Of a DNA stretch of 64,000 bases, positions 11,142 to 28,148 are shown in pieces. Source of the DNA: an uncultured bacterium (GTDB lineage: Bacteria; Verrucomicrobiota; Lentisphaeria; Victivallales; UBA1829); the NCBI GenBank assembly GCA_949297765.1, contig CASFTV010000002.1, forward strand, positions 1 to 64,000. Reading direction: 5' to 3'. The notes under the pieces are model-generated. The model had not been told where the DNA came from. It was given only the letters and a program-made list of their open reading frames with translations, and did not search any database. How positions within the stretch are numbered: position 1 is the first letter of the stretch; each line of letters starts with the position of its first letter. Position numbers and translations under genes: made by a program.

Positions 11142-11166
11142 CAACGGAAACGATCCGGAGAGCACG

Positions 11167-11490: not shown

Positions 11491-12161
11491 TGACCACGCT
11501 GAAAAAAATGATGACGGAACGGGGATCGGTTCTGATGGAAACGATCCTCGTGATTCCGCTGTATATCGCTTTTTTCAGCGGGATCTATCTGCTCGGCGAT
11601 CTGGAGCTCGGACGCAACAGACTGACCGCCGCCGACCGTTTCGCGGTCTGGCTCTCCGGCAGCCGGTACGAACAGAAGGACGATGACGCGGTGAAGAACA
11701 ACGCCTCGAAAACTTTTTTCCCGGACGGAGAATTCGCCGAGGGAACGAAAGTTGAATCGTTTGCATCCCACAAAACGAAGGTGGACTGGTATTCCGTCGT
11801 GCGCGGTGCGGCGAAACTCAAGATGGTCCTTCCGGTCTGGGCCGTGGGATGCCGGAAAGGGGTGATTCAGCTTTTCGCCGACATCGGTACGGCACCGGAT
11901 AAAAAGTTGTGGGACAATCTTTCGTTCAAATCGCGGGAGGTCAAGGAGCCGGACACCCACAGCGTGCTGATGCGCGCAAATTACGATGTCCGAGAGAAAT
12001 CGGGCCGTGAACTCGCACAGGGCGGCCCGTTGTGGTATGTGGAGTACCGCACGGCGTTCATCAACCGTGAGGGAGTCCCCGGCGACAGGCCGGGGACGCT
12101 CTCCGTCTGCAACGGTGCAGAGTATACCCGAAACCCGCAATTCGAGGCATGGAGCAAATGA
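11487..12161 (+). CDS. second TadE-like pseudopilin
   Basis: The 224-aa protein has the leader ERG|SVLMETILVIPLYIAFFSGIY (Glu +5, long hydrophobic helix) followed by a globular domain with LTAADRFAVWLSGSRY, in the position where TadE proteins have their conserved helix. It overlaps both neighbours by 4 nt, indicating translational coupling. It is a paralogue of the protein at 7563-8105 but diverged outside the N-terminus. Confidence 0.75.
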   Translation: MMTTLKKMMTERGSVLMETILVIPLYIAFFSGIYLLGDLELGRNRLTAADRFAVWLSGSRYEQKDDDAVKNNASKTFFPDGEFAEGTKVESFASHKTKVDWYSVVRGAAKLKMVLPVWAVGCRKGVIQLFADIGTAPDKKLWDNLSFKSREVKEPDTHSVLMRANYDVREKSGRELAQGGPLWYVEYRTAFINREGVPGDRPGTLSVCNGAEYTRNPQFEAWSK

Positions 12162-12520
12162 GAATGAAACGGCTTTCGACATTGTTCTGCATGGTTTGTC
12201 TTGCGGGCGCCGCCGTCGCTGCGGAGATCCGGCTTCCGGCGGAAGCGCGGCTTTCCGCCGATGAAGCCGCGGACGGGAAAACATGGCGGCAATACGGAAC
12301 CATGCCGCTTGCCTACACCGCGGCAAAAAGGAATTTTGATCTGGCTTTGCGGAAACAGGGGTGGAAAAAGTTGAAAACGGTCGAGTACGACCGGATTCAA
12401 TGGAAATCTCTCGAACTGTGGAGCAAAGGCAAAGAGCGGATACTGGTGCAATACTGGCGGGAGGATGTGTCGCTCACCGGCTTTGCCTGGGGATCGCTGA
12501 AGGATGAAAAGAAGTCATGA
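12158..12520 (+). CDS. small exported protein, unknown function
   Basis: The 120-aa product has a signal peptide (MRMKRLSTLFCMVCLAG AAVAA, cleavage near residue 21) and a short mature domain with W, Y and K residues (WKKLKTVEYDRIQWKSLELW). Start ATG 12158 overlaps the upstream stop codon; ATG 12164 is an alternative. Its end overlaps the kinase gene by 4 nt. It might be a periplasmic partner of the pilus or of the kinase's outer domain. No family recognised. Confidence 0.6.
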   Translation: MRMKRLSTLFCMVCLAGAAVAAEIRLPAEARLSADEAADGKTWRQYGTMPLAYTAAKRNFDLALRKQGWKKLKTVEYDRIQWKSLELWSKGKERILVQYWREDVSLTGFAWGSLKDEKKS

Positions 12521-15500
12521 ACGAGAACGAAACACGGAAAAAGAACCAGAACCCGTCTTCGGATGCAGTCTCCCCGGCATCGGTGCGTCCGGAGACGGAC
12601 TCCGCCGTTTCGTCGTCGGATAATGAAACAAGGTATCCCACTGAAGTCACCATGGTCGACGCTCCCGGCCGGAAAGCCTCCGCCCCGGACGCCGAATGGG
12701 GCAGGACCGAGCTTACCATGGTCGACGCCCCCGGCCGGAAAGCCTCCGCCCCGGATGCCGGACGGAACAGGACCGAGCTTACCATGGTCAGCGCGCCTGT
12801 CAATCCTCATCAGACCGATGTGACCATGATTCAGGAAAATCCGCCGGAACCGGAGCAGATTTCCAGCGAGGATGATTTGCAGCCGGGCGACCGGATCGAC
12901 CGCTACACCATTGTCAGGAAACTCGGTCAGGGAGGCATGGGCAGCGTCTATCTGGTACGGCATGAAACGCTTGGCGTTTTCCGCGCGGCAAAAGTCCTTT
13001 CCGGCGCTCTTTACAAACGCGGCGGCGAATTCGTCAAACGCTTCATTCAGGAAGCGAGGATGGCGTGTTCGATCAGCCATCCGAACATCGTCAATGTGCT
13101 GGACGTCGGCGACGAATCCGACAGCGGACTCTGCTATATCATTATGGAATATGTGGACGGGGGAACCGTCAGCAATGTGCTGCATACCATTCCGCGCCTC
13201 AGCGAAATCCATGCGGTCATCATAGCCGAAGCGGTGGCGGAAGCGCTGAAAGCCGTCGCCGAACAAAAGATCGTTCATCGCGACATCAAACCGGACAACG
13301 TGATGCTGACCCGGCGCGGCGAAGTCAAACTGGCCGACCTCGGGATCGCCAAAAGCACGGACGAAAATGTTCAGCTGACCAAATCCCACATCATGATGGG
13401 AACTCCGGCGTATCTTGCTCCGGAACAGGCGCAGGACGCCCATTCCGTGGATGTTCGCGCCGATATCTACAGCCTGGGCGCAACATTGTATGAAATGCTT
13501 ACCGGAGAAATTCCGTATCCCGGGAAAAGCACATATGATATTCTGACAAAATTGGTTTCCGATCCGGTTCCCGATCCCCGCGCGCTGGTGGATTCCATCT
13601 CTCCGCAGACCGCGCGCCTGGTCATGAAAATGTTGTCGAAACAGGCGAAACAGCGTCAGCACAGCGCGGCGGAACTGCTGAAGGAAATCCACGCGCTGAA
13701 TATTCTGCCGCCTAATTTCGACTCTCAAAAAAGTATCCGGGAACTTCTGGAACAATCCGGAGCCGGAAATTACAGCACGGCTTCGCTGACTCCGACCACC
13801 GGCAATCCCGTTTCGACCTGGCTGATGCGGCATGTGCTGCTCAAACTGGAAACCTCTCTGCGTAAAATTCCGGTTTGCGCCCGCATGATCGACGCGATGC
13901 ACCGGGATATCCGGATCTTTTATGCAGTCCTTGTTCTGGTGACTCTTTTATTGATCGGTCTGCCGATCACCCTGGTCCTGACTGCACCCCCGGCCATTCC
14001 GGATGCTCCGTTCTCCGCTCAGGCGGTGCAGGATATTCCCGGTGTTCCCGACACTTCCCGCTCCTCGGACGGTTTTGGCCCCGGCACACCGGTTCCCGGG
14101 GAATCGACCTCCGCCACGACCGCTCAACAAGCTCCCAAGGCTCCGGAGACAATGCTCCCGACGGTTCAAAAAGGACAGGAAAAGTCTGCTCCGGCAGGCT
14201 CGGAAACCGCAAAGTCTCCCGCAGATTCTGCTCGATTGGACGAGGAAAAGCGTCAGCGTGAGGAAGAAGAGCGTCAGCTGGAGCGGAAGCGCCGCGAACT
14301 CGAAGCCGAACGCAGACGGGCGGCGCAGCGTCGTTCTGTTGTTGTGCAAACTCCGAAAACACCGGCGTCCGGAGCGAAAAAAATCGCTGTTTTTGCAGAA
14401 ATCACTCCGGTCGGGGCGAACGCTGTTCTGAAAGACGATGCCGGACGGGAACTGCTCTCGCAGCGTGTCCCGATCAGCGGGAAAATTCAGTTCAATGTTC
14501 CGGCGGGGCAATACCGACTTTTCGTATCGGCGCCCGGTTTCAAGTCGATGGAACGGGCGTTCCCGGTTTCGGACAGACGGACGATCACCTGTGTCAAGGT
14601 CGATCTTCCGCATGACGTATGCACCTGCACGGTGCGGGTTTACGGCAGCGCCAAACTGCTGGATTTCCTGAAGGTCAAAGGTGTGGAACTCCGCGTCGAT
14701 AACGGAAAATGGAATAAAGTCACAAAATTCCCGTATGAAATGAAACTGACTCGAATGACTCACACGCTGTCGCTGCAGGGAACGGGAATCCGTCCGACCG
14801 TTCAGACGTTGAAAATTGCTCCGGATCAGGCGGAAAGCACAGCGGAAATTTATCTTACGGAAAAAGATGCTTCCCTGGAAATCTCAACGAAGATCAAGGA
14901 CAAGATCTCCATTAATCTGTTTGGAATATGGGTGCCTCTGAAAAAGAATATCACACTTTCTCCTTTCAAGACGTACACCTTGAAATGGAGGATTTCCGAC
15001 GGAATGGAATCCATCGTTCAGATCCCGGAACTTCAGCCGGAATCCGTATATAAAATTGTTCTGGAACGAAAGCGGCAAGCCGCTGTTCCCGGCGAAGAGG
15101 AATTCGCCGAAGCGGAAAAACTCATAGAAAACGGCGATAACAAAGACGCTGTGGAAAAACTGAAAGCGGCCGCCGAAAAGGGACATCCGGAAGCGATGTT
15201 CCGACTCGGACAGATGAATGAACAGGGAAAAGGCCGCTGGTTCTCCAGCGACTCGGATGCCCTGGCTTGTTATCAGAAAGCGGCGGAACCGCCGTTGAAT
15301 CATGCAAAGGCGCAGTATCAGATGGGCTTGTTTTATGAAAAAGGACGCGGCGGTCTGGACCGGGATATAAGAAAGGCGATGGAATGGTATAAAAAATCCG
15401 CAGATCAAAAAAATCCGGATGCGCTGTTCCGGATCGGGATGGCCTACAAGGACGGCGATGGAGATGAACCGGTGGATTACACGAGAATGATTGAATTTTT

Positions 15501-15678
15501 TACGGAGGCGGCCCTGGCCGGACAGCCCGATGCACAGTATCAGCTGGGATACAGTTATGAAAACGGAATCGGAGTGCCGATCAATGTCGGCAAGGCGAAG
15601 TACTGGTATGAAAAAGCCGCGGAACAGGGAAACAGCAAGGCTCGGCGGCGCGGAAAAGCTCTGGAAGGATTGAAATAA
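12517..15678 (+). CDS. membrane Ser/Thr protein kinase with PEGA-like and Sel1 repeats
   Basis: This 1053-aa protein has a disordered N-terminus with Thr-containing repeats (residues 40-100). A Hanks-type kinase domain follows (about 129-390): GQGGMGSVYLV loop, Lys in RAAKVLS, HRDIKPDN catalytic loop near 254, DLG in place of DFG, and APEQA. A transmembrane helix lies at about 466-487. The outer part contains a Pro/Ser-rich linker, a charged coiled coil (EEKRQREEEERQLERKRREL, about 575-605), a PEGA-like beta domain (about 625-700) and Sel1/TPR-like repeats from about 870 to the end (HPEAMFRLGQMNEQGKG and similar). The kinase would face the cytoplasm and the repeats the periplasm, linking pilus or envelope state to phosphorylation. 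FHA proteins and a PP2C phosphatase follow in the same operon. Confidence 0.9.
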   Translation: MNENETRKKNQNPSSDAVSPASVRPETDSAVSSSDNETRYPTEVTMVDAPGRKASAPDAEWGRTELTMVDAPGRKASAPDAGRNRTELTMVSAPVNPHQTDVTMIQENPPEPEQISSEDDLQPGDRIDRYTIVRKLGQGGMGSVYLVRHETLGVFRAAKVLSGALYKRGGEFVKRFIQEARMACSISHPNIVNVLDVGDESDSGLCYIIMEYVDGGTVSNVLHTIPRLSEIHAVIIAEAVAEALKAVAEQKIVHRDIKPDNVMLTRRGEVKLADLGIAKSTDENVQLTKSHIMMGTPAYLAPEQAQDAHSVDVRADIYSLGATLYEMLTGEIPYPGKSTYDILTKLVSDPVPDPRALVDSISPQTARLVMKMLSKQAKQRQHSAAELLKEIHALNILPPNFDSQKSIRELLEQSGAGNYSTASLTPTTGNPVSTWLMRHVLLKLETSLRKIPVCARMIDAMHRDIRIFYAVLVLVTLLLIGLPITLVLTAPPAIPDAPFSAQAVQDIPGVPDTSRSSDGFGPGTPVPGESTSATTAQQAPKAPETMLPTVQKGQEKSAPAGSETAKSPADSARLDEEKRQREEEERQLERKRRELEAERRRAAQRRSVVVQTPKTPASGAKKIAVFAEITPVGANAVLKDDAGRELLSQRVPISGKIQFNVPAGQYRLFVSAPGFKSMERAFPVSDRRTITCVKVDLPHDVCTCTVRVYGSAKLLDFLKVKGVELRVDNGKWNKVTKFPYEMKLTRMTHTLSLQGTGIRPTVQTLKIAPDQAESTAEIYLTEKDASLEISTKIKDKISINLFGIWVPLKKNITLSPFKTYTLKWRISDGMESIVQIPELQPESVYKIVLERKRQAAVPGEEEFAEAEKLIENGDNKDAVEKLKAAAEKGHPEAMFRLGQMNEQGKGRWFSSDSDALACYQKAAEPPLNHAKAQYQMGLFYEKGRGGLDRDIRKAMEWYKKSADQKNPDALFRIGMAYKDGDGDEPVDYTRMIEFFTEAALAGQPDAQYQLGYSYENGIGVPINVGKAKYWYEKAAEQGNSKARRRGKALEGLK
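12649..12780 (+). repeat. two 66-bp tandem repeats inside the kinase gene
   Basis: Units 12649-12714 and 12715-12780 are nearly identical and in frame, encoding 22-residue repeats that begin TMVDAPGRKASAPDA. A third, partial start (ACCATGGTC) follows at 12781. Each unit carries a Thr followed by Asp at +3, the classic FHA-recognition spacing. Confidence 0.85.
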
Positions 15679-15712
15679 ATATGAAAACCCGAAACATAAG
15701 GAACAACGGAAA

Positions 15713-16414
15713 ATGAAAAATTCCATTCCCCTGATTCTTGCGGTGCTGCTGGGGCTGGCAGCGGTGTTCGCCGTAAGCAAGATCATCTCGACCAACACGG
15801 CCAAGGTCGAGGAAACCGTGAAAATTGTGGCGGCAGGTGATCGCGGAAGGATTCTTCATGCCGAAGGAGGTTCCGGTATCCGCCGTACCGGCACAGGCCA
15901 TTAAATGGAATCGCTCGTCCATGATCGTCGGACAGCGCTTGAAGCAGCCGGTACAGAAAGGCAACTACATTTTCATTCAGGACGTGGGACTCTCCCAGGG
16001 AATGAGCAATGTGGTCGGCGAAGGGGAATGGGCGGTCGCCATTCCATTCTGCAAAGCGGAGACGAAGTGGCGATTGTCGGCACCTTCAAGCTCGACTTCA
16101 AAGGCGGCGCGGGAGTGCCTCCCGGAAAAAAGGATGTGACCATGGTGCTGTTCCCGAAGGTCCGGGTGCTGGAAATCCCGTCCGGCAAGCGGGATCAGAA
16201 TATGGACGGCGTGATTATCGTGCTGCTGCCTCCGCAGCAGGCGCAGGCGCTGATCGCCGCTTCACGGGTCGCAGAGCTGACCCCCGTGCTGCGCCGGACG
16301 AACGACCCGACCGCTCTGAACCGGATGGACGCCGGAATGGTGACGCCGGAAACCTTCAGTTCAATGGTCGATGACCTTGAAGTTGTCAATATTCCCAAAA
16401 CGTCCAAAAAGTAA
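15713..16414 (+). pseudogene. cpaB: CpaB/RcpC-like pilus assembly gene with two compensating frameshifts
   Basis: The product starts as a membrane-anchored CpaB (hydrophobic helix SIPLILAVLLGLAAVFAV, then KVEETVKIVAA). An extra G at about 15836 moves the reading to the next frame (VIAEGFFMPKEVPVSAVP, MIVGQRLKQPVQKGNYIF), which is the SAF-like middle. A missing base near 16045 (probably CCC read as CC) returns it to the first frame (ILQSGDEVAIVGTFKLDF to the stop at 16414). Without the two shifts a 233-aa protein results. As written, the first frame stops at 15902. Both events are homopolymer-length changes, so sequencing error is as likely as real decay. It sits directly before the secretin gene, the normal CpaB-CpaC order. 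Confidence 0.75.
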
Positions 16415-16435
16415 ACGAACCACAAGGAGGTCACC

Positions 16436-17947
16436 ATGTTAAAGAAAATTTTCGCTCTGATCGCAATGGCAGGTGTGGCCGTTGGTGTGATGGCCGCAGA
16501 CAGTGAAAAAGTCTTTGTCCCGCTGAAAGGAATCGTGATTCTGACCCCCGGCTTCCGGGCGACCGACATCAATATCACCGACCGGGGGATCATCTCCGCC
16601 GAACCGATTGCGAATGACCAGATTCGCGTAACCGGCCTGGCCGTCGGAAAATCCGATCTGCACATTACCGCCGGAACGGTTGCAAAACTTTACACCGTGA
16701 CGGTCAACGACAATGTGCGCGAAGTTTTCAATGCTCTGCGGAGAGACCTGGACAGCGTCCCGGAAGTGGAAATCAGCATCAACGGCAACAAAGTCGTATT
16801 GAAAGGCGAGGTTTCCAGTATTGAAGGATGGGAAACTCTGCTGAAGGTCCTTCCCGGATACGGCGGCAATGTCGTCAATCTGACCATCTTCCGTCCCGCG
16901 CCGGAAATTATGCTGTCCCTGAAAAAACTCTTTGAGAAATCCGGATTCCGGATGGTTCAGGACATCACCGATCTTTCCCCCGGCACATTGTCTCTGCAAA
17001 ACGAAAAGGATACGCTGATTCTGCGCGGCTCCGTTTACTGCCAGGAAGATCTGACCACCATCCAGCAGCTGATTTCCACGCAGGACTGGATCTCCTTCGA
17101 CGGAAAAGACAAGAGCAAGCCCGTCAAATTCATCAACAAAGTCGCCATTAAACCGACTCTTCTTGACGTCGGCGTGGTATTCGTCGGAGTCAAAAAGTCC
17201 GAAACCAGCGCGATCGGCGCGAATCTGCTGAAAGGCGGTGTGAACATCGCGCAAGGCTTCAATTTCTCCACCATTTTCAACGGCGGAACCAACCAGAGTT
17301 ACAATCTCGGAGCTGATCTCAGCACCATTCTGAATCTGATGGCGGAAAGCGGCTGCAAGCGTTTTCACCGTGCCGGACACCTGAGCTTCATGAGCAATGA
17401 ATCCAACGAGTTCAAAGTCCTGCATGAAGGCGGCACGCTGAAAGTCCGTGTTTACGGCGGCGCCGGCGGAACCGGAACGCTGAACGATGTCCCCTATGGT
17501 TTTATCATGCGCGTCAAAGGCGGTTTGATCGGCAGCGACCGCGTCAAACTTGACGTCCAGCTTGAAATCAGCACTCCCGCGCTTCAGGAAAACAACGACT
17601 ACGATCTCAAGCAGACCAAGGTTTCCACGACCATCGTCTCCAAACTCGGCGAAACCGTCGCGCTGGGCGGCATGAAGGATATGATTGAAGAAAGTTCCGG
17701 TCCCTCCGGCATTCCGTTCCTCCGCAAAATTCCGGTGCTGAACTGGATCTGCGCCGAACAGACCGACTCCTTCAACGACAATCAGGTTCTTCTGCTGGTC
17801 TATCCTCAGGTTGCAGGCCGGACGCCTCCGCTGAAGATGCCGCCTTCCGCCGAAACCGCGAACACGCTGGATGAATCCGGAAAAAGCAACCAGCAGCGCA
17901 CCCGGGAGGCCGATGAGAAAAAAAGTTTCTGGGAACGCTGGTTCTAA
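16436..17947 (+). CDS. cpaC: Tad/type II-type secretin (RcpA/CpaC)
   Basis: The 503-aa outer-membrane protein has a signal peptide (cleavage after VMAA, about residue 20). An N-terminal pilus-secretin domain follows (KGIVILTPGFRATDINITDRGI, VTGLAVGKSDLHIT) and a BON-like repeat (VREVFNALRRDLDSVPEVEISINGNKVVLKGEV). The C-terminal secretin domain contains the conserved IPFLRKIPVLNW block near residue 425. A strong ribosome site (AAGGAGG) precedes the ATG. It forms the outer-membrane channel for the Tad pilus. A polar, Gln/Arg-rich tail ends in WERWF, an aromatic end typical of outer-membrane proteins. Confidence 0.9.
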   Translation: MLKKIFALIAMAGVAVGVMAADSEKVFVPLKGIVILTPGFRATDINITDRGIISAEPIANDQIRVTGLAVGKSDLHITAGTVAKLYTVTVNDNVREVFNALRRDLDSVPEVEISINGNKVVLKGEVSSIEGWETLLKVLPGYGGNVVNLTIFRPAPEIMLSLKKLFEKSGFRMVQDITDLSPGTLSLQNEKDTLILRGSVYCQEDLTTIQQLISTQDWISFDGKDKSKPVKFINKVAIKPTLLDVGVVFVGVKKSETSAIGANLLKGGVNIAQGFNFSTIFNGGTNQSYNLGADLSTILNLMAESGCKRFHRAGHLSFMSNESNEFKVLHEGGTLKVRVYGGAGGTGTLNDVPYGFIMRVKGGLIGSDRVKLDVQLEISTPALQENNDYDLKQTKVSTTIVSKLGETVALGGMKDMIEESSGPSGIPFLRKIPVLNWICAEQTDSFNDNQVLLLVYPQVAGRTPPLKMPPSAETANTLDESGKSNQQRTREADEKKSFWERWF

Positions 17948-17967
17948 TTAGAAAATGAGGTGAGAGA

Positions 17968-19626
17968 ATGTTTCTGCAAATAACCGAAGCAAACGGAACG
18001 GCCCGCCATATCGACCTCGGCGACAAAGAGGGCGAATGGCTGATCGGACGTTCCGAGAACTGCGATATCTGTCTTCTGGAAAGTTCGGTGTCGAGAAAAC
18101 ACGCGAAACTTTTCGGCGGACCGGAAACATTCTTCATCTCCGATCTCGGCAGCGGAATCGGAACCCGAAATCAAAATGGACGGATCACCTCGGCCGTGGA
18201 ATTCAGTCTGAGTGATTCCATATCCATCGGTCCGTTCCAGCTCCGGCTGGTGAAATCGGCCGTTTCCGCTCCGCCGAGGCCGCCGGCGGACGAGGGGGAG
18301 AAGAGCGTCTCCCGCACGTTTGATTTTGATGACACCAACGTTTTCTACACCGACGAGCTGATGGCTCTCAAAACCCGGATCCACAATTATGTGCTGGGAA
18401 AATTGAATCTTCAGGAAATCGCGACCAAGCAGATCGCAAATGACGAAATGCGCGAAAAACTGCTCGCCGCGCTGGATCTGTCGCTGAAAGAACTGCGTCA
18501 CGAATTGCCGCACACCATTCCGCTGGAAAAACTGCGGGAGTCGCTGCTGGACGAGCTGACCGGATACGGCCCGATTTCCCCCCTGCTGCGTTCCGACAAG
18601 GTGGATGAAATCATGGTCAACGGCCCGGATCTGATTTTTGTGGAAAGTCACGGACGCATTTACGAAACCGGCGCACGATTTTTCAACGATAAACATCTGT
18701 ATACGATTATTCAGCGAATTGTCGAACCGCTGGGACGCCACGTTGACGAAGCCAGTCCCATGGTGGACGCCCGTCTTCCGGACGGTTCCCGTGTCAATGC
18801 GATCATCTCTCCTCTTTCGCTCCGCGGCGCGGCGGTGACGATCCGGAAGTTCGCAAAAAAGAAGTTGACCGCCGAAGACCTGATCGCTTTCGGAAGCATG
18901 ACTCCCGGCATCGACCTGTTCCTGCGGGAAGCGGTGCGCGCCGCTCAGAACATCCTGGTCTCCGGCGGAACCGGATCGGGCAAAACGACGCTGCTCAACG
19001 TGCTTTCGCAATATATCCCGGCGGACGAGCGCGTCATTACCATCGAAGACTCCGCCGAACTGAAACTTTCCCACCGCAATCTGGTATCGCTGGAATCGCG
19101 TCCGGCGAACATTGAAGGGAAGGGGCGAATTCAGATCCGGGATCTGGTCATCAACGCCCTGCGCATGCGTCCCGACCGGATCATCGTCGGGGAGTGCCGC
19201 GGCGCAGAGGCCATGGACATGCTTCAGGCAATGAACACCGGACACGACGGCTCGCTCACCACCTGCCACGCCAATTCGCCGCGGGATGCGATTTCCCGTC
19301 TGGAAAACATGGTGCTGATGTCGGGGATTGAGTTCCCGATCACCGCCATCCGCGAGCAGATCGCCTCCGCCATCAATTTGATTATCCAGCAGAACCGCCT
19401 TCCGGACGGGTCTCGCAAAATCGTGCAGATTTCCGAGATCACCGGACGCGAAAAAGACATTGTGCTGATGCATGATATTTTTGTGTTCAAGCAGACCGGA
19501 TATGATGAAAACGGAAAAATAGTCGGGGAATATTATCCTACGGGAAATATTCCGGCCTTTGTGGAAAGACTTCGCCAGAAAGGCGATCTCAAACTCGACA
19601 TGTCCGTGTTTGTTCCCCGGGCATAA
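17968..19626 (+). CDS. tadA: FHA-domain fused to CpaF/TadA pilus ATPase
   Basis: The 552-aa protein begins with an FHA domain (residues 1-90: LIGRSENCDI, SSVSRKHAKL, DLGSGIGT), followed by a linker and a complete CpaF-type secretion ATPase. Visible blocks are [35 protein letters not shown], Walker A GGTGSGKTTLLN near 333, ITIEDSAEL, RMRPDRIIVGECRG and TGHDGSLTTCHAN (His box). The ATPase powers pilus assembly. The FHA domain is an unusual addition and should bind phosphothreonine peptides, plausibly from the operon's kinase, so ATPase recruitment or activity may be phospho-dependent. Confidence 0.9.
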   Translation: MFLQITEANGTARHIDLGDKEGEWLIGRSENCDICLLESSVSRKHAKLFGGPETFFISDLGSGIGTRNQNGRITSAVEFSLSDSISIGPFQLRLVKSAVSAPPRPPADEGEKSVSRTFDFDDTNVFYTDELMALKTRIHNYVLGKLNLQEIATKQIANDEMREKLLAALDLSLKELRHELPHTIPLEKLRESLLDELTGYGPISPLLRSDKVDEIMVNGPDLIFVESHGRIYETGARFFNDKHLYTIIQRIVEPLGRHVDEASPMVDARLPDGSRVNAIISPLSLRGAAVTIRKFAKKKLTAEDLIAFGSMTPGIDLFLREAVRAAQNILVSGGTGSGKTTLLNVLSQYIPADERVITIEDSAELKLSHRNLVSLESRPANIEGKGRIQIRDLVINALRMRPDRIIVGECRGAEAMDMLQAMNTGHDGSLTTCHANSPRDAISRLENMVLMSGIEFPITAIREQIASAINLIIQQNRLPDGSRKIVQISEITGREKDIVLMHDIFVFKQTGYDENGKIVGEYYPTGNIPAFVERLRQKGDLKLDMSVFVPRA

Positions 19627-19641
19627 GGGAGGAGATAATAT

Positions 19642-20508
19642 ATGCACTGGTTCGTTCTTCTCATGGTGTTCGTCGCGGTGTCCGCCATCTGTTACATTCT
19701 CTGCCGCACGCTGTTTGCCGATCTGGATCACAGCGGCGTGGAGCGTTCCGGCGGCTGGGATGGACGAACACAGCTGGAATATTTTATCTCCAAACCGAAA
19801 CTTCGGAAAATTCAGATCTGTTTTGCAACCGTCGGCGCGCTGATTATGCTTTGTCTGCTGCTGGTGGCGGGAGTCTCCGCGTGGGCGATTCCGATTGTCC
19901 TGTTGATGGCCGCCGGAGGGGCGTATGCGCTGCCGCTGCTGTATTATAAGAACAAGGTGAAAAAGCGCAATCTTGCGTTCAAAAGCAGATTGCTGGATGT
20001 GGTGCTCGGGCTGAACAACGGCATGCGTTCCGGGGTGGCGCTTCCCCAGGCGCTGGAGGTCGTCGGGCGCGACATCGGCGGAGTCATGCAGGAGGAAATC
20101 TCCATGACGCTTTATGAATACCGCCTCGGGATCGATTTGACCGAGGCGCTTGTCCGGCTGGAAAAACGGATGCCGGATGATAATCTGAAACTTTTCGTCA
20201 CGGCGGTCGGCATTTCCCAGCAGACCGGGGGAAGTCTCTCGGACATCCTGGACAAGATCATCGACACGATCCGCCAGCGTTCCATCATGGAGGATAAGAT
20301 CAACACTCTGACCGCGCAGGGCAAGTTTGAATCCATCGTCATGGCCTGTGCTCCTCTCATGGCGTTCGGCATTCTTTATGCGCTTGACCGGCAGTTGATG
20401 CAGCCGCTGATCACCACCGTGCTCGGATGGGCGGCAATCTGCGTGGTGCTGATTCTGGAAACCATCGGATATCTCTTTATTAAAAAAATAGTCACGGTCG
20501 AAATATAG
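19642..20508 (+). CDS. tadB: TadB inner-membrane platform protein
   Basis: The 288-aa protein has N-terminal membrane helices, a central T2SSF-type cytoplasmic domain (LLDVVLGLNNGMRSGVALPQALEVV; FVTAVGISQQTGGSLSDILDKI) and two C-terminal helices. This is the GspF-like fold of TadB. It follows the ATPase by 15 nt with GGGAGGAG as ribosome site. It forms the inner-membrane platform with TadC. Confidence 0.9.
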   Translation: MHWFVLLMVFVAVSAICYILCRTLFADLDHSGVERSGGWDGRTQLEYFISKPKLRKIQICFATVGALIMLCLLLVAGVSAWAIPIVLLMAAGGAYALPLLYYKNKVKKRNLAFKSRLLDVVLGLNNGMRSGVALPQALEVVGRDIGGVMQEEISMTLYEYRLGIDLTEALVRLEKRMPDDNLKLFVTAVGISQQTGGSLSDILDKIIDTIRQRSIMEDKINTLTAQGKFESIVMACAPLMAFGILYALDRQLMQPLITTVLGWAAICVVLILETIGYLFIKKIVTVEI

Positions 20509-20530
20509 AGCTGGAAAGGAGGACGCAATC

Positions 20531-21439
20531 GTGGATGAACAGGTATATATGCTGCTGGCGAGGCTGTTGAGCTTCCTTGCCGCGTTTCTGCTGGTGCTCG
20601 GACTGAAATTTTATGTTTCCGGGAAGACGAAGAGGGGAGGGGGGTATTCCGATCCGCGCCTTCCGTTCACCTTCCGGGAATTCTACAATGAGATCAAGAT
20701 CCTGAAGGATACGCTCGGTTCGGGCATGAAACAGCTCTTTCGAAGCAAGAGTGAAGCCATCGCCAGAGACCTGAAGCTGGCCGCTTTGCCGCTTGATTCG
20801 ACAGATGTTTTCGGCGCTCAGCTCCTTTGGGCCATTCTGTTCGCCGTATGCGGGATCGTCTTTATGCTGCTCCTCGAAATGGAGGTGTCGTATGTTGTCA
20901 CGGCAATCTTTATCGCAGGATTCACCGGCTGGCTGATTCCGATTGTGCAGATTCAAAATCTTGCGCAGGAAAGACAGAATTCCATCCGCCGCGCTCTGCC
21001 GTTCTCCATCGACCTGATTTCCTCCGCCATGACCGCGGGGCTGGATTTCTCCGCCGCCGTCCGCTACTATGTGGAGCATTCGGCAATCTGCCCCCTGACC
21101 CAGGAGTTCGGCATCACGTTGAAGATGCTGGAACTTGGAAACAATCGGAACGACGCGTTGAAAGCCATGGCGGACCGACTCTGCATCGACGAATTCCGAA
21201 GCATGGTCAATGCTGTGATTCAGGGAACTGAAATGGGCGCATCCATCTCCGACACGCTGCGGATCAACGCCGAGGAAATGCGGCGCGTCCGTGTCGCGGC
21301 GGCGGAGCGCAAGGCGCAGCGCGCACCCTCGCTCATGATGATCCCGATGGCGCTGTTTATTATGCCCTCGGTATTTATCATTATTTTTGTCCCGATCTAT
21401 CTTCGAGTTCAATCCTCCGGTATGGTCGGCATGTTTTAA
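20531..21439 (+). CDS. tadC: TadC inner-membrane platform protein
   Basis: The 302-aa protein starts at GTG 20531 behind a GGAGG site. Membrane helices flank a T2SSF domain with ALPFSIDLISSAMTAGLDFSAAVRYY and AVIQGTEMGASISDTLRINAEEMRR, conserved in TadC. The C-terminal helix (IPMALFIMPSVFIIIFVPIYL) matches the family's end. It pairs with TadB in the pilus platform. Confidence 0.9.
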   Translation: MDEQVYMLLARLLSFLAAFLLVLGLKFYVSGKTKRGGGYSDPRLPFTFREFYNEIKILKDTLGSGMKQLFRSKSEAIARDLKLAALPLDSTDVFGAQLLWAILFAVCGIVFMLLLEMEVSYVVTAIFIAGFTGWLIPIVQIQNLAQERQNSIRRALPFSIDLISSAMTAGLDFSAAVRYYVEHSAICPLTQEFGITLKMLELGNNRNDALKAMADRLCIDEFRSMVNAVIQGTEMGASISDTLRINAEEMRRVRVAAAERKAQRAPSLMMIPMALFIMPSVFIIIFVPIYLRVQSSGMVGMF

Positions 21440-21451
21440 GGGAGAAAGGAT

Positions 21452-23038
21452 ATGATCAGATATCTTATATACGTCGATCACGAAAAAACGCAGGAAGGGG
21501 AATTGTCTCCGGGCGAACACATCGCGGGGCGTTCCCATTCCGCCGACATTCATCTTACCGAGCCGGATGTTTCCGGAAAACATCTGAAACTTGATGTGAC
21601 GGCGGAAGGAGTCTTCGCGGAAAACCTGAGTTCTCACGGCACAGTTTTCCAGGGCAGTCCGCTGGACGCCCGAAGAAAAATGAGCGACGGCGATGTGCTT
21701 TGTCTTGGAAAAAAACTGGAAATCCACTTGAGGATTCCGGAGGACAATCCGATTCCCGAAGACGGCGAAATGAAAACCGTCATCCCCGCTGCGCCTCCGT
21801 CCGAGGCGGTTGATGACCCGAACAAAACGGCGATCCCGCCGCAGCAGGTCTCCCGGAACACGGCCGCGGACCGGAGCAGAATGCTCATCCCGGAAAACGA
21901 CAAGGAAAACAAGACCGTTCCGCCGCAACCGGCTCCAACGCCCGAAAAGAATGGGGAGGACGTCCAGAAAACGGATGTGATGCGCACCCGTCTTGCCAGC
22001 TTGGAGGAAATGAATCTCCTGCGCAACGCGGATCGCAAGCGGTCCACGGGAAAATTGTTCCAATATATTCTCGGCGGCATCGGGGCGATTGCCGTTCTGG
22101 TATTGCTGTATTCTTTGAAGTCGTCGCCCAAAGAGGTGAATCTGAGCTGGCCGGTCGGATCGGACGGCTATGAACTCGGAGCTTTCACCGATCCCGGCAA
22201 CGGCGGACACAAGGCCGGAGCATTTTCGCTGGCATATCCAAGTATCAAGGGAAAAACAAAAGTGGAACAGAAAGCGGGACGAATCACCATCTCCACCCGC
22301 TTCGGAAAAGACGCCTCGGTTCCGCTTCGGATTATTTTCATTCAAAAACAATCCGCCGACTTTCTGGTCAAGGAGCGGAAACAAGTGTTTTCCTCCATGC
22401 TGGCCGATTTGCAGAAAGAGAATAAAAGATGGAATCTGGCGCAGATCTCCGATGTGTTTTTCATCGGTTCTGAAAATGGTTTGCCCTGCTTGAGCGTCGA
22501 GTACCGGCGCGAGGCGGACAACGAATCATGGTATGGGGAAATTCTGTTTTTCCGCACCGGAGATCGGGCCTGCATGAGAATGGCGGAAACTCTTGTTTCG
22601 GAACGCGCCCGCGGTCAGAATTTCATTTCCAACACACCGTTTCTGAAATTTTCCGCACAGTATTTGCAGGGGCATTGGGAGGGCAATCCCGATTATAAAG
22701 GCGGAGCCGATCCCGCCGTAATGCTCGATGAAGTGTCAAAACACCTGGCAAAACAGGCTCCGTTTGAATGGGCGAGAACGTATCTTCTGCTTCAGAATAC
22801 CCTGATGGAAAGTGTCAAAACCAGCAATCCGGCCCTGATGCAGAACGCGCTTACGCAGCTGCGGCGTCTTCGTTCCATGCAGACCATCTGGTACAACAGC
22901 CAGAAAATCCAATACTACGAGGCAAGTCTGAAAAATGACCGTCAGCAGGCGAGTGCGGTTCTGGAATTGTGCAAAACCGTTTTCTCCTCTCCCGACGATC
23001 TGCGCTATTTCACACTCAGGAGGAACGTATGGGAGTAA
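21452..23038 (+). CDS. FHA-domain transmembrane protein
   Basis: This 528-aa protein has an N-terminal FHA domain (IAGRSHSADI near 25-34, DVSGKHLKL near 45-53, NLSSHGTVFQ near 64-73). A disordered Pro/Lys/Thr-rich linker (about 105-190) repeats KTVIPAAP, NKTAIPPQ and NKTVPPQP. A transmembrane helix (about 205-222) is followed by a C-terminal domain of unknown fold. The FHA domain would be cytoplasmic and the C-terminal half periplasmic. The linker threonines may themselves be kinase targets. It overlaps the next gene by 10 nt. Confidence 0.8.
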   Translation: MIRYLIYVDHEKTQEGELSPGEHIAGRSHSADIHLTEPDVSGKHLKLDVTAEGVFAENLSSHGTVFQGSPLDARRKMSDGDVLCLGKKLEIHLRIPEDNPIPEDGEMKTVIPAAPPSEAVDDPNKTAIPPQQVSRNTAADRSRMLIPENDKENKTVPPQPAPTPEKNGEDVQKTDVMRTRLASLEEMNLLRNADRKRSTGKLFQYILGGIGAIAVLVLLYSLKSSPKEVNLSWPVGSDGYELGAFTDPGNGGHKAGAFSLAYPSIKGKTKVEQKAGRITISTRFGKDASVPLRIIFIQKQSADFLVKERKQVFSSMLADLQKENKRWNLAQISDVFFIGSENGLPCLSVEYRREADNESWYGEILFFRTGDRACMRMAETLVSERARGQNFISNTPFLKFSAQYLQGHWEGNPDYKGGADPAVMLDEVSKHLAKQAPFEWARTYLLLQNTLMESVKTSNPALMQNALTQLRRLRSMQTIWYNSQKIQYYEASLKNDRQQASAVLELCKTVFSSPDDLRYFTLRRNVWE

Positions 23039-25407
23039 GCAATTCAAAAAGCAGCATATTCAGGCGAATGTTCTCCCGCGAGACGTTCAATCACTTTCAC
23101 AATACCGTGGTGCGCGGTCTTTCCCTGAAGAAGTCGGCTCCGGAACGGCTGAGTCTCCGGCTTGAATTCAATCACAAGGTGTTGTACGAAGTTGCCGATC
23201 TTGCCGCTTCCGATACCATCACCATCGGAAGAAGCGCGGACTGTACATGGGTGATTCCCAAGGACGACAATGTCGCCAGCGGACATCATGCCGTTATTCT
23301 GATGCGCAAGGGGCGCCTGTGCCTGCGGGATACCGGAAGCCGGAATGGGATTTTCTACAAAGCCCGGAAAATTCAGGAAAAAAATCTCGTTCCGGACGAT
23401 CAGTTCGCTATTGGAAACTGTACCCTTTATGTGGAGAAGCTCAAGGCGTCCGCCGCCGCACGGCATGAGCTGGTGTATCTCAACACGGACAACAAAGGAC
23501 AGGCGGTCCGGCTTGACAATCCCCGAATGGTGGTCGGGTCCGCTCCCGGCTGCGATCTCGTGATCGACGAACAACTCGTTTCGCAGCGCCATGCCGAATT
23601 CAACAGCAAGGCGGATGGCTGCTGGCTTCGCGACCTCGGCAGTAAAAACGGTACGTTTGTAAACGGGACCAAACTTTCCGCCACGACGGAGCGGCTGCTG
23701 GTTGATGACGATGTCGTCAGCATTTCCTTTGTCGATTTCAAATTCGTGGATGGGACCATTGAGCATTCCAAAATCAGAATATGGTACAGTCTCGGCATCG
23801 TTGCAGCGACCATTTTCATCGTTCTGGCGTTGAACTGGCTCTGGATGGGAATCAAATCGTCTTCCGACACCTATCTGAATTACGCCAGGCGCGAGGCGGC
23901 CGCCGAGCGGTTCGATCAGGCGCGTGAATCCCTGAAGGAATCGCGTTCGCGGCGCGGTGCGGACGCAAATGAAATTGCTTACAACGAATTGGATCAGTCC
24001 ATCGCCGTGTGGGAAAAGATTTTTGCCAGCTGGGGAAAGGCAAAATCGGCACTGAATTCCGGCAATTGGATCGAATCCTCTCACATTCTCGGCATGATTA
24101 CCGACGCCGATCCCAATGTGTGGGGATGGAACGACACCTCCGCTCCGGAAATGCGGAAAGAAGCGTTCACCGTAAAAAAACTGCTGGATGCGTATCTTCT
24201 GGCGGAGACCTCTATGCGCGATGACCGGAACCAGAAAAATCTCGCCGACTTGAAACAATCTGTCAACATCATCGGCGAAATCGAAAAACGTTTTTCGAAA
24301 AAGCCTCCTGCCTATTTGAAAAAACTGCTGGCGGATTCGGTAACGCTTCGCAAACAGATCCGGGATAACCTGTTGTATTTGGAAAAGCTGGAGGCCATTC
24401 TTGCAAGAATTGAGGAGGAATCGGAGAATCTCGCCCTGGTTTTGAGCGACCTGGATGAGTTGAAACAGCATGCCGAGCCGAATATCCGCATCCGAATCGA
24501 AAGCTGCATGGTCCCGTTGGCGATGCTGCAGCGGAGCGGGAAACAGATCAAGCGCGCCATGGTCGCGGTGCAGCAGCTGGAGTTTGAAAAACTCGACTCC
24601 ATCCGTCTGGATCTTCCGACCTTGGAACAATGCGTCGTCAATGCGAGTATTGCCACGCTCAGGAAACAGCAGGAGCGGCAATTCGATATCATTCTTTCTG
24701 TCGCCGCCAATCTGCGTCCGCTGATCCGCAATTTGAACGAGGCGGGGCTGGACAAGGATACTTCCCTTCCGGAATGTGTCTCAATCTTCCAGAATCAGAA
24801 GGTCATGAAAAAAGTCCTCTCCTGTGATGCGTTTGAGCGGAAAATGCCTTCCCGGCTCCGGACGGAACCGGCGGGGGAATACGACCGTGTTCTCGGAATT
24901 GAAGGATTTTTTGAGTTCATCTATGCGCTTCCGGCCCCCTATGACCAATCCGTGTATTCGGAGTTTCAGTTCCGTCCTGAAATTGTCAAATTCCGAAATC
25001 TGCTCGGCGCGATCCAAACGTTCCGGACATTCGCCGATCAGAAACAGAACGAGTGGCTGCATTCCGGTGCGTTTCAGCGCCTGTATGAAAGTACCGGAGC
25101 TGTGCTTAAATTCCGAAACGAACTGGCAACAAAATATTTCACGGCGAACAGCGAGTCGTTGCGGGAAAGCATCTTAAGCAAAGCCATCGCCATTTTCCTG
25201 ATGAATGGAGAAATCAAGGAGGCGGACGTGGAAGCCTTTACCCGCGACTTCAAGAAGATGCGCATTCCTCTGATTAAACTGGGACGGGATTACAATGCCG
25301 CGTCGGACGAACAGAAAATAGAAATCAGAGATTCCATTCTCCGTCAAGGCATTCCGGGTGATCCCGTGGTGCGCCGGATGTGGGGATTCAAGAAATATCC
25401 AAGGTGA
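23029..25407 (+). CDS. tandem-FHA transmembrane protein with large helical domain
   Basis: The 792-aa protein carries two FHA domains, one at about residues 60-125 (ITIGRSADCTW, NVASGHHAVI, DTGSRNGIFY) and one at about 155-235 (MVVGSAPGCDLVI, LVSQRHAEF, DLGSKNGTFVNG). A single transmembrane helix follows at about 253-275, then a roughly 500-residue, mostly alpha-helical C-terminal domain with no recognised family. ATG 23029 has an excellent ribosome site (AGGAGG). The two FHA domains could bridge two phosphorylated partners at the membrane, making it a scaffold candidate for the Tad machine. Confidence 0.8.
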   Translation: MGVSNSKSSIFRRMFSRETFNHFHNTVVRGLSLKKSAPERLSLRLEFNHKVLYEVADLAASDTITIGRSADCTWVIPKDDNVASGHHAVILMRKGRLCLRDTGSRNGIFYKARKIQEKNLVPDDQFAIGNCTLYVEKLKASAAARHELVYLNTDNKGQAVRLDNPRMVVGSAPGCDLVIDEQLVSQRHAEFNSKADGCWLRDLGSKNGTFVNGTKLSATTERLLVDDDVVSISFVDFKFVDGTIEHSKIRIWYSLGIVAATIFIVLALNWLWMGIKSSSDTYLNYARREAAAERFDQARESLKESRSRRGADANEIAYNELDQSIAVWEKIFASWGKAKSALNSGNWIESSHILGMITDADPNVWGWNDTSAPEMRKEAFTVKKLLDAYLLAETSMRDDRNQKNLADLKQSVNIIGEIEKRFSKKPPAYLKKLLADSVTLRKQIRDNLLYLEKLEAILARIEEESENLALVLSDLDELKQHAEPNIRIRIESCMVPLAMLQRSGKQIKRAMVAVQQLEFEKLDSIRLDLPTLEQCVVNASIATLRKQQERQFDIILSVAANLRPLIRNLNEAGLDKDTSLPECVSIFQNQKVMKKVLSCDAFERKMPSRLRTEPAGEYDRVLGIEGFFEFIYALPAPYDQSVYSEFQFRPEIVKFRNLLGAIQTFRTFADQKQNEWLHSGAFQRLYESTGAVLKFRNELATKYFTANSESLRESILSKAIAIFLMNGEIKEADVEAFTRDFKKMRIPLIKLGRDYNAASDEQKIEIRDSILRQGIPGDPVVRRMWGFKKYPR

Positions 25408-25413
25408 CAACCT

Positions 25414-26238
25414 ATGCCGTTTCTGCTGTTCCAGAAAAAATACTTCACCGCCGGCGCGTATACCGACACCGGTTTGGCACGCAAGGAGAATCAGGATTCC
25501 TACCGTTGTCTGTCTTCCGGCGGCCTGTTCGTCGTTTCCGACGGCATGGGCGGCGGGGACGGCGGCGAACGGGCAAGTGCCATTGTCGTTCAGACTCTCG
25601 CGAAAGCGGTGGTCACTCCCTTGAAGAATCTCTCGGCAATGGTGAAATTTTCCTATCAGGCAAACACCGAAATCCAGAAGTTCGCCGCGGCGAACCATAT
25701 GCGCGGCATGGGCGCCACGATTGTCGGAATCGTTCTCTCTCCGTTTCAGCCGACTTTCGCAATGCTGTTCTCCGCGGGGGACAGCCGCTGTTACCGGCTG
25801 AGGAAAAAAGAGTTGGAGCTGCTCACCACAGATCATTCCATCGCCTCCGCAATGGGTGTGACAGAGGAGAAACTGGCAAAGCATCTGCAGGGCGTCCTGA
25901 CCAACGTCGCCGGGTGCGGCCCGAAGTTTTTTCTCGAAACACAGAATCTGGATCTGATGGACAACGATCTTTATTTGCTCTGTTCGGACGGCGTTTCCCG
26001 TCAGATTCCCGAGTCGGAAATAAAACAGATTTTAAGCTCAAATTCCCTCCCGGAACAGAAAGCGAAAGACTTGATTACCGCATCCTTGAAACACGGCGGA
26101 ATGGATAATGCGACCGCCATTGTAATTGCCTTCGGGAAACTTCCGGAAATCACTCCCGACGTCAGCCGGGAAGAAGCCGAAACTCCGATGACCCCGGACG
26201 GAGAGGAGGAAGATGATGTTACTCCGCCAACTGAATGA
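25414..26238 (+). CDS. PP2C-family Ser/Thr protein phosphatase
   Basis: The 274-aa protein shows the PP2C metal-binding blocks: TDTGLARKENQDSY, VVSDGMGGGDGGERAS, GMGATIVGIVL, SAGDSRCYRLR, LCSDGVSRQI and GGMDNATAIVI. It should dephosphorylate pThr/pSer and so reverse the operon's kinase. The last 30 residues are a Thr- and acid-rich tail (TPMTPDGEEEDDVTPPTE), which might be a phosphorylation or docking site. It overlaps the following kinase-like gene by 26 nt. Confidence 0.9.
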   Translation: MPFLLFQKKYFTAGAYTDTGLARKENQDSYRCLSSGGLFVVSDGMGGGDGGERASAIVVQTLAKAVVTPLKNLSAMVKFSYQANTEIQKFAAANHMRGMGATIVGIVLSPFQPTFAMLFSAGDSRCYRLRKKELELLTTDHSIASAMGVTEEKLAKHLQGVLTNVAGCGPKFFLETQNLDLMDNDLYLLCSDGVSRQIPESEIKQILSSNSLPEQKAKDLITASLKHGGMDNATAIVIAFGKLPEITPDVSREEAETPMTPDGEEEDDVTPPTE

Positions 26239-27103
26239 TATCCTCCCGGCACTTTGCCGGGGATTCGAATCGCCGGAAACCGAATTTGAGCCGTATGCCG
26301 CGCAAATCGGCAGGGAACTTGAATGGCTCCGGACTCATCCCGTGCAGATCGAATTGTCCGGACTTTGCCCGCTGGATTTCTTCCTGCTGTTTCGCCCGGA
26401 TCGGCGGACGGCCGTTCTCAGCGGCGGCGCCGGTCTTTCCGACTGGCGGTGGGCGGCGGCGGTCCGGTTGACGGAATTGCTGACGAATCTTCGTCCGGGT
26501 CTCAGCACCGATGTTTTTGACACCGCGCTTCACAACTGGAAAAGCAGTGTTCTGCTCCGGAAAGGCTCCGGTCTCCCGGAATTCATCCGAAATGTTTTCT
26601 GCGGAATGCCGGTGGAGGAACGGCGATTGTCGGAGCCGGTCGTGATTCACGGAGCAAAACTGAAGCGTTTTCTTGCAAAAGGAAGTACGTCGCAGGTATA
26701 TCTTGCAGATTTCCACGGCCGGGAGAGTGTCGTGAAGATCCCGGTTGGCGGAGGCGAGTCCCGTTTTCGGAACGAGCTTGAATGCCTGCGCCGCATGAAC
26801 CACCCGAATCTGCCGGAAGTGTTCGCCTGCGAGACCGGCGATTCTCCGTACTGCATCATGGAATGGTGTCATACCGGGAAACCGATTGGAAACCGGGGAA
26901 AAACATCCGGTTTTTTCAAGGCGCTGGACTATTTGCATCGACAACTGGTTTTGCATGGCGACATCCGGTGGTCGAATCTCGGACTGCGGAACGATGGTTC
27001 TCCCGTCCTGCTGGATTTCAGTCATGCCAAACGCGCCGGCAGTCGTTTTTCTGCGGAGGAAGCGGATGCTGAAACTCAAAAATTGAAGTGCCTCTTGGCA
27101 TAA
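26213..27103 (+). CDS. atypical protein-kinase-like protein
   Basis: The C-terminal half of this 296-aa protein looks like a small kinase fold: a modified glycine loop (LAKGSTSQVYLADF), a Lys in SVVKIP, an aC-like FRNELECLRRMNHPN, the hinge CIMEWC, a catalytic loop HGDIRWSNLG (Asp and Asn kept, Arg and Lys-Pro altered) and LDFSH in place of DFG. The N-terminal 125 residues are unlike kinases. It may be an active small kinase or a regulatory pseudokinase that partners the phosphatase with which it overlaps. GAGGAGG stands before ATG 26213. Confidence 0.65.
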   Translation: MMLLRQLNDILPALCRGFESPETEFEPYAAQIGRELEWLRTHPVQIELSGLCPLDFFLLFRPDRRTAVLSGGAGLSDWRWAAAVRLTELLTNLRPGLSTDVFDTALHNWKSSVLLRKGSGLPEFIRNVFCGMPVEERRLSEPVVIHGAKLKRFLAKGSTSQVYLADFHGRESVVKIPVGGGESRFRNELECLRRMNHPNLPEVFACETGDSPYCIMEWCHTGKPIGNRGKTSGFFKALDYLHRQLVLHGDIRWSNLGLRNDGSPVLLDFSHAKRAGSRFSAEEADAETQKLKCLLA

Positions 27104-27116
27104 GGAGCAGAGGAAA

Positions 27117-28148
27117 ATGAATGGAATTTCTTACCTGGCCATGTTTCTGGAACCGGTCAAACCCTGGCTTGACGATCCGTCCGTCAGCGAAATTATGATT
27201 AACGGGCCGGAAAATATTTACATTGAAAAAGGCGGCAGGGTTGTTAAAGTCGAATCAAAATTTCCCAGCGAACCGGCGCTTCAAGCCGCGGCGAACAATA
27301 TTGCAAAATCCGTCGGACGGGTGCTGAACGATGAATATCCCCGTCTGGATGCACGGCTTCCGGACGGTTCCCGCGTTCATGTTGTGATTCCGCCGCTTTC
27401 CCGCTGCGGGACGGTTGTTTCCATCCGCAAATTCCGGACCGATTCACTCTCCCCGGAAAGTCTGGTGAAATGGCAGAGCATTTCGCAGGAAATGCTTGAC
27501 TATCTCAAAAACCTGGTTCAAAAGCGAATGAATATTCTGATCTGCGGTGCGACCTCGTCGGGAAAAACATCCATTCTCAATGTTCTGAGCTCGTACATTG
27601 ATCCGGCGGACCGCATTCTGACGATTGAGGATTCCTGCGAACTTCAACTCCGCCAGCCGCATCTCGTGCCGTTTGAAACCCGCCGTCCGGACAAGGACGG
27701 CAAAGGGGAAGTGACCTTTCGCGATTTGCTGCATTCGGCGCTGCGTCTGCGTCCTGACCGCATCATCCTCGGCGAAATTCGGGGCGGCGAGGCTCTGGAT
27801 CTGCTTCAGGCAATGAATACCGGACATTCCGGATCGATGTCCACAATTCACGCAAACAATGCCTACGACAGTCTGCTGCGTCTGGAAACCTGCGTCATGT
27901 ATGCCGGGTTTGATCTCCCGCTCAGTGCGATCCGCAATCAGGTGGTCGCCGCCTTGAATTATATCGTCCATACCGGCCGCCTGGAGGACGGCAGCCGCAA
28001 GGTGCTCGGAATCAGTAAGGTTCTTCCGCTGGAGCACGGGGAATATCACCTTGAAAGCGAATGGGAATGGACGCAGACCGGAACGGACGAGTCCGGAAAA
28101 TTTATCGGAAAATTCAACAAAGTGCAAAAAGAACAACAGGGGAGTTAA
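27117..28148 (+). CDS. second CpaF/VirB11-type secretion ATPase
   Basis: The 343-aa ATPase has [32 protein letters not shown], Walker [13 protein letters not shown] near residue 143, [32 protein letters not shown] and [13 protein letters not shown]. It lacks the FHA domain and the long N-terminal part of the first ATPase and so is of minimal CpaF/TrbB size. Two secretion ATPases in one Tad locus may split extension and retraction, or serve different pilins. It follows the kinase-like gene by 13 nt. Confidence 0.88.

Follow-up and report, generated by a model that had tools for sequence, protein, structure and literature searches.

Whether a bacterial pilus operon can carry its own switch based on threonine phosphorylation is the question raised by a Tad/Flp pilus locus in a 64,000-nucleotide stretch of DNA (referred to here as the window, and comprising positions 1 to 64,000 of contig CASFTV010000002.1 in assembly GCA_949297765.1) from an uncultured bacterium of the order Victivallales in the class Lentisphaeria. 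A sequence-only reading of the window had proposed that an operon at 12517-27103 encodes a complete phosphorylation circuit, with a membrane Ser/Thr kinase as the writer, a PP2C phosphatase as the eraser, a second kinase-like protein and, as the readers, three proteins with four FHA domains between them, interleaved with the genes of a Tad pilus. Our analysis, in which genes were called as open reading frames (ORFs) and domains were identified by Pfam scans of the operon proteins, indicates that the operon probably does specify a Thr-phosphorylation switch of its own, one that would gather the FHA-bearing motor at the membrane assembly.

Signalling genes within the Tad operon

All the signalling components named above were matched by Pfam. 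The writer gene (12517-15678; Pkinase, 3.3e-49, and three Sel1 repeats) encodes, in order, a disordered Thr-rich tail, a cytoplasmic kinase domain with the motif HRDIKPDN, a transmembrane (TM) segment and a C-terminal Sel1-repeat region. The eraser, a PP2C phosphatase (25414-26238; PP2C_2, 1.7e-10), was found by motif alignment to have intact metal-binding Asp motifs. The second kinase-like protein (KinB; 26213-27103; Pkinase, 6.2e-9) is short and divergent, with the motifs HGD and DFS. Because its catalytic K, HGD, N and D are kept in all 12 homologues aligned, we regard KinB as divergent but not dead, and its assignment as a pseudokinase was rejected as the default.

The interleaving with pilus genes was likewise borne out. 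Between the writer and the eraser lie a disrupted cpaB/rcpC gene (15713-16414; a weak RcpC match, 1.4e-5), the outer-membrane secretin gene (CpaC/RcpA; 16436-17947; Secretin, 1.9e-15), the gene for the pilus motor ATPase FHA-CpaF (17968-19626; T2SSE, 1.2e-65, and FHA, 3e-11), those for the inner-membrane platform proteins TadB (19642-20508; T2SSF, 2.9e-16) and TadC (20531-21439; T2SSF, 4.2e-15), and those for two further FHA proteins, FHA1 (21452-23038; FHA, 1.1e-9) and the double-FHA protein FHA2x (23029-25407; FHA, 2.2e-32, in two stretches). A second CpaF-type ATPase gene without an FHA domain (CpaF2; 27117-28148; T2SSE, 1.1e-55) comes after KinB. The T2SSE, both T2SSF and the Secretin matches were all over the Pfam cut-off. 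The operon is therefore present as had been proposed, but its extent had been set too small, because the contiguous run spans about 6700-29046, with all genes on the + strand and overlapping or close-packed.

Linkage of the signalling genes to Tad loci in relatives

To define the arrangement in relatives, 20-kb neighbourhoods were compared in Lentisphaeria, the nearest named genomes being metagenome-assembled genomes of Victivallales/Lentisphaeria, and four arrangements (types A to D) were distinguished. Some contigs were fetched twice (L052/L175, L054/L180, L040/L053 and L043/L055), and the counts given here refer to copies, not to independent lineages. Type A, the arrangement of the window, runs membrane kinase-cpaB-secretin-FHA-CpaF-TadB-TadC-FHA1-FHA2x-PP2C-(KinB)-CpaF2 or extra kinases. 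In type B, the PP2C and kinase genes are placed after the pilin and TadG genes, and in type C, a short kinase gene adjoins CpaF2. Type D is a second Tad locus, in which FHA-CpaF is without the phosphate-contacting Arg and neither a kinase nor a PP2C gene was found nearby. The host genome holds one type A and one type D locus, and the latter (L046; contig C1:216000-235999), with G-S in its FHA-CpaF and no kinase or PP2C gene nearby, offers a natural internal comparison.

The window PP2C was then used as the query across 137 genomes of the order, with matches of at least 105 bits taken as close relatives. There were 34 of these, and 22 had a window-type FHA-CpaF gene no more than 20 kb away; of the other 12, five adjoined further Tad genes, four were at contig ends next to the usual tail genes, one was on a contig too short for its setting to be judged and two lay elsewhere. 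Among the matches listed, none of the generic, lower-scoring PP2C genes lay within 20 kb of FHA-CpaF, the nearest being about 35 kb away, as read by hand from two match lists. The Tad PP2C sequences group together at high scores, apart from the generic PP2C that these genomes also encode.

The linkage was also found outside the order, where the system is again marked by the C-terminal domain of FHA2x and where three loci (L177/L185, L178/L186 and L175/L187) carry PP2C, CpaF2 and a kinase together. CpaF2 is kept in types A and C as well as in these loci, although the usual description of Tad systems is of a single bifunctional motor, CpaF, which drives both pilus extension and retraction. Furthermore, among 80 diverse CpaF loci, a kinase or PP2C gene was nearby in 9 of the 34 with an FHA domain versus 1 of the 46 without (p=0.0015). 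The loci that combine FHA with signalling genes include one from Myxococcota (L071), one from Planctomycetota (L081) and several of the Bdellovibrionota type (L094, L106, L110 and L118). The Bdellovibrionota-type loci have FHA and double-FHA genes and a diverged PP2C-like gene, with no kinase gene nearby.

These results bear on the possibility that the co-location is coincidental or due to hitch-hiking, with the kinases and PP2C serving general signalling. The host genome (4.23 Mb in 92 contigs) contains 14 Pkinase genes and two PP2C_2 genes; 12 of the kinases and one PP2C are encoded outside the operon, so cross-talk is possible. However, the linkage spans genera and families and reaches beyond the order, even where the gene order within the locus has changed, and the Tad PP2C group is distinct from the generic one. 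Because Pkinase and PP2C_2 genes are few in the genome and relatives keep the same arrangement, the co-location is far beyond chance; chance was rejected, and this explanation, already disfavoured, is to be regarded as extremely unlikely. Had the signalling genes of related genomes never been linked to Tad genes, the proposal would have fallen, but the survey found the linkage. The retention of this block in relatives suggests that the pilus is switched by phosphorylation.

Reader domains, candidate docking sites and the proposed switch

The four FHA domains were each matched by Pfam, one on FHA-CpaF, one on FHA1 and two on FHA2x. The N-terminal FHA domain of FHA-CpaF (18037-18231) keeps G-R, S and H, and a linker precedes the CpaF core. 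FHA1 consists of an FHA domain (21524-21709), a disordered Thr-rich linker, a TM segment, a C-terminal PsbP/DcrB-like domain and a helical tail; its AlphaFold model has a mean predicted local distance difference test (pLDDT) score of 70, with residues 99-181 disordered between the FHA domain and a long TM helix. The C-terminal part of FHA1 (22051-23035) is similar to the PsbP/DcrB/SciW-type fold (Foldseek E of about 1e-5 and target-normalised TM-score of about 0.6). FHA2x consists of a canonical FHA domain (23218-23415), a second FHA domain (23530-23724), a TM segment and a C-terminal helical solenoid, and its model (pLDDT of 80) gave the FHA domains of GarA, OdhI and DgcB as the best Foldseek fold matches.

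Across all type A and B loci, Arg, Ser and His are kept in the FHA domains of CpaF and FHA1 and in the first of FHA2x. In the Fha protein of the type VI secretion system (T6SS), the matching Arg and Ser are both needed for phosphothreonine binding and secretion, and their mutation abolishes binding (PMC3953482). In the second FHA domain of FHA2x, G-S replaces G-R, and the phosphate-contacting Arg is absent in all 19 Lentisphaeria copies examined. As a result, at most three of the four domains are canonical readers, and the proposal of four readers stands for three of them but not for this one.

Candidate phosphorylation sites were found in two of the membrane proteins. The kinase tail has four T[ED][VL]TM[VI] repeats (TEVTMV, TELTMV, TELTMV and TDVTMI; 12640-12831, + strand), which are candidate autophosphorylation and FHA docking sites. 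In type A kinase tails, T[AED][VILM]T[MIV] occurs at 15.2 per 10k aa versus 0.04 in unannotated ORFs. The TxxT motif of the tail was present in 17 of the 27 long Tad kinases, and it was rejected as a universal mark of the system, since it is carried only by type A kinases and by the FHA-kinases or extra kinases that are copies of them, and is absent from types B and C.

The second candidate is the juxtamembrane motif TRLASLEE of FHA1, which contains Thr179 (21986-22009, + strand). The FHA1 linker is hardly alignable, yet it always ends in TRxA[ST]xxE in types A to C (27 of 27 copies versus none of the four type D copies). This ending also occurs in five of seven further loci, which are the sole partly independent check on the motifs, with variants in L181 and L182. 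A related motif, TSVTKFAS or TAATRF, is tandemly repeated in L039, L041, L136 and L137. The FHA1 linker of L039 (6196-8415) contains about eight near-identical copies of EEGEMTSVTKFASE, making it a candidate docking array that is strongly amplified. After the removal of duplicates, the residue at +2 from Thr in type A and B linkers was aliphatic at a frequency of 0.33 versus 0.16 in shuffles (z=8.3); Ser was without this bias (0.11), as were type D linkers. This bias resembles that of known FHA ligands: in the self-ligands of GarA, OdhI and DgcB, positions +2 and +3 are hydrophobic (PMC6733907).

From these features, we infer a sequence of phosphorylation and binding events, the signal that starts it and its effect on the pilus. 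The C-terminal Sel1-repeat region of the membrane kinase would detect a signal from the envelope or surface, and the kinase would phosphorylate threonines in the TxxT repeats of its own disordered tail and also in the cytoplasmic linker of FHA1, where its targets would be the KTxIP repeats and the TRLAS site next to the membrane. The FHA domains, chiefly that of CpaF and the first of FHA2x, would bind the phosphorylated sites, and this binding would gather the motor at a membrane assembly of TadB/TadC, FHA1 and FHA2x. A CpaF hexamer would present six FHA domains to several sites, resulting in a cooperative on-switch, and PP2C would strip the marks and free the motor. A more specific form of this scheme, which we put forward only tentatively as a possible refinement, is multivalent phospho-docking. 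Here, Thr motifs that can be amplified in tandem, namely TxxT on the kinase and KTxIP, TSVTKF and TRxA[ST] on FHA1, would form a tunable platform that recruits the six FHA domains of the hexamer when phosphorylated, with PP2C bringing about the release and the FHA-less CpaF2 perhaps acting as a partner motor.

Several observations weigh against a switch of this kind. The peptide-backbone-contacting Asn is absent from the FHA domains of CpaF and FHA1 in types A to C, and some type C FHA domains have a changed S or H. Type C loci have no PP2C gene. The Arg is kept in four of the five type D FHA1 proteins with no kinase nearby, and the rule that the FHA Arg occurs only where a kinase is present, which holds for FHA-CpaF, was discarded on this account. 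The motif patterns were in part picked from the data and then counted, in copies that are related. In the window itself, cpaB is broken; alignment with L034 indicated deletions of 23 bp and 25 bp that put the central part of the gene out of frame and jointly restore the frame at the 3' end, whereas the gene is intact and full-length (249 aa) in all near relatives, and the break may reflect either a genuine mutation or an error of assembly. The set of writer, eraser and reader is present, but to call the circuit complete is too strong because one FHA domain is without Arg, cpaB is broken and the phosphorylation is a prediction.

To the same side belongs the finding that an FHA domain may serve as a phosphate-independent scaffold, as in EssC of the type VII secretion system T7SSb, where it functions without phosphate (PMC11217815). 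This leads to the main rival explanation, namely that the FHA domains serve chiefly as structural parts of the inner-membrane assembly and need no phosphate, like YscD of the type III secretion system and EssC, and that the roles of the kinase and phosphatase are marginal or separate. Pfam Yop-YscD_cpl matches on the FHA proteins, Foldseek matches to YscD and the absence of Arg from the second FHA domain of FHA2x are in line with it. So are the class III CpaF proteins (FHA-IDR-CpaF, with IDR denoting an intrinsically disordered region), which share the domain architecture of the window motor and are described mostly from betaproteobacteria (PMC12019362); in those sampled from beta- and gammaproteobacteria, the FHA domain is largely degenerate (G-K or G-S, with Ser lost) and a kinase gene is rarely nearby. 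However, Arg, Ser and His are fully conserved in the three type A and B domains, the Arg is kept in none of the seven type D FHA-CpaF proteins, the linkage of kinase and PP2C is conserved and the motif bias is specific to Thr. We therefore consider the scaffold explanation rather unlikely and prefer a phosphorylation switch. The tie between the circuit and the Tad locus, as claimed in the sequence-only reading, is upheld by the conserved co-location, the intact catalytic and phosphothreonine-binding residues and the conserved candidate sites.

Related systems and the rest of the locus

Earlier publications describe motors of the FHA-CpaF type, the FHA-rich Kil system and, for T6SS and T7SSe, circuits of kinase, phosphatase and FHA protein, and a literature search joining Tad, PP2C and FHA found no paper, most subscription journals being outside its reach. 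A parallel had been drawn between the window and the Thr-phosphorylation control of T6SS by PpkA/PppA/Fha (TssL Thr14; PMC3953482), and it holds in that a membrane kinase, a PP2C and an FHA reader are encoded with the machine. However, the machine is another one (T6SS Tss core genes are not at the locus, and the operon genes matched by Pfam are Tad genes), the FHA domains are on the motor and two TM proteins, and there are several candidate sites instead of one. Kil (PMC8460266) and T7SSe (PMC11217815) are nearer. T7SSe/T7SSc-f resembles the window in having the TsxD kinase, a PPM phosphatase, an FHA domain on the TsxC motor ATPase and a separate FHA protein, and differs in being a Gram-positive T7SS with an FtsK-type ATPase and no pilus (PMC11217815). 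The self-peptide switches of GarA, OdhI and DgcB likewise place Thr with hydrophobic +2/+3 residues in a disordered tail that is read by FHA (PMC6733907), but these are soluble enzymes or regulators, whereas the candidate sites of the Tad system lie in membrane proteins and are often tandemly repeated.

Kil of Myxococcus xanthus shares with the window a Tad-type ATPase, here named FHA-KilF, with an N-terminal FHA domain and further FHA proteins in its clusters, and its authors suggested a T6SS-like phosphorylation cascade, naming no kinase (PMC8460266). It differs in having no reported kinase or phosphatase, one ATPase, two separate clusters, a short secretin and a function in contact killing (PMC8460266); in the window, the operon itself includes two kinases, PP2C and an additional ATPase. 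In the Tad operon of Bdellovibrio, for which no kinase is reported, the FHA protein Bd0474 is needed for predation after attachment to prey (PMC6561027). These systems, together with the FHA and double-FHA genes of Myxococcota and Bdellovibrionales-type loci, raise the possibility that the locus encodes not an adhesion pilus but a Kil-like machine for killing or attachment that is triggered by contact, in which phosphorylation would relay the touch of another cell. However, Kil is reported with a single ATPase and the window locus has two, the latter also has Flp pilins and TadE/G, and homology of the C-terminal domains of FHA1 and FHA2x to the Bdellovibrionota and Myxococcota counterparts was unsupported by hhalign. 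Predation is not known among Lentisphaeria. We regard such a machine as improbable, and the architecture of two FHA domains with a helical or tetratricopeptide-repeat tail, which the window shares with Bdellovibrionota/Myxococcota, may represent convergence.

The pilin and TadE/G genes lie in the upstream half of the operon, where neighbouring genes overlap or are separated by gaps of at most about 22 bp, all on the + strand. This part comprises genes for an Flp pilin (6700-7002; Flp_Fap, 9e-5, a weak match under the curated cut-off), a prepilin peptidase (7018-7566; Peptidase_A24, 1.5e-15), a TadE-like protein (7545-8105; TadE, 4e-10) and a TadG-like protein (8102-9571; Tad, 1e-5), followed by two unassigned ORFs (9593-10585 and 10605-11141), a second Flp-like gene (11092-11490), a TadE/F-like gene (11487-12161) and an unassigned ORF (12149-12520) that is overlapped by the start of the kinase gene. 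The final gene of the run (about 28156-29046, + strand) encodes a probable lipoprotein, with its start placed from a lipobox-like LLFSGC and with homologues in relatives. In the scanned operon proteins, with the rest of the genome not searched, no TadZ/CpaE MinD-like domain was found; TadZ/CpaE is not universal in Tad-type systems, Kil being an example. Directly upstream of the operon, 5840-6418 encodes an extracytoplasmic function (ECF)-like Sigma-70 region 2/4 protein, homologues of which are also near the Tad loci L038 and L149. On the other side, Asp-box-like repeats (DGGKTWSAP), noted by eye in the product of 29476-30552 (- strand), suggest a sialidase/BNR-type protein.

If the FHA domain borne by the motor reads phosphothreonine placed by the kinase of the same operon, motor recruitment becomes testable through the FHA Arg, the Thr of TRLAS and the TxxT tail. 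The cascade proposed for Kil would thereby gain a testable form, and the kinase/phosphatase/FHA principle would be extended beyond T6SS and T7SS to machines that resemble type IV pili.

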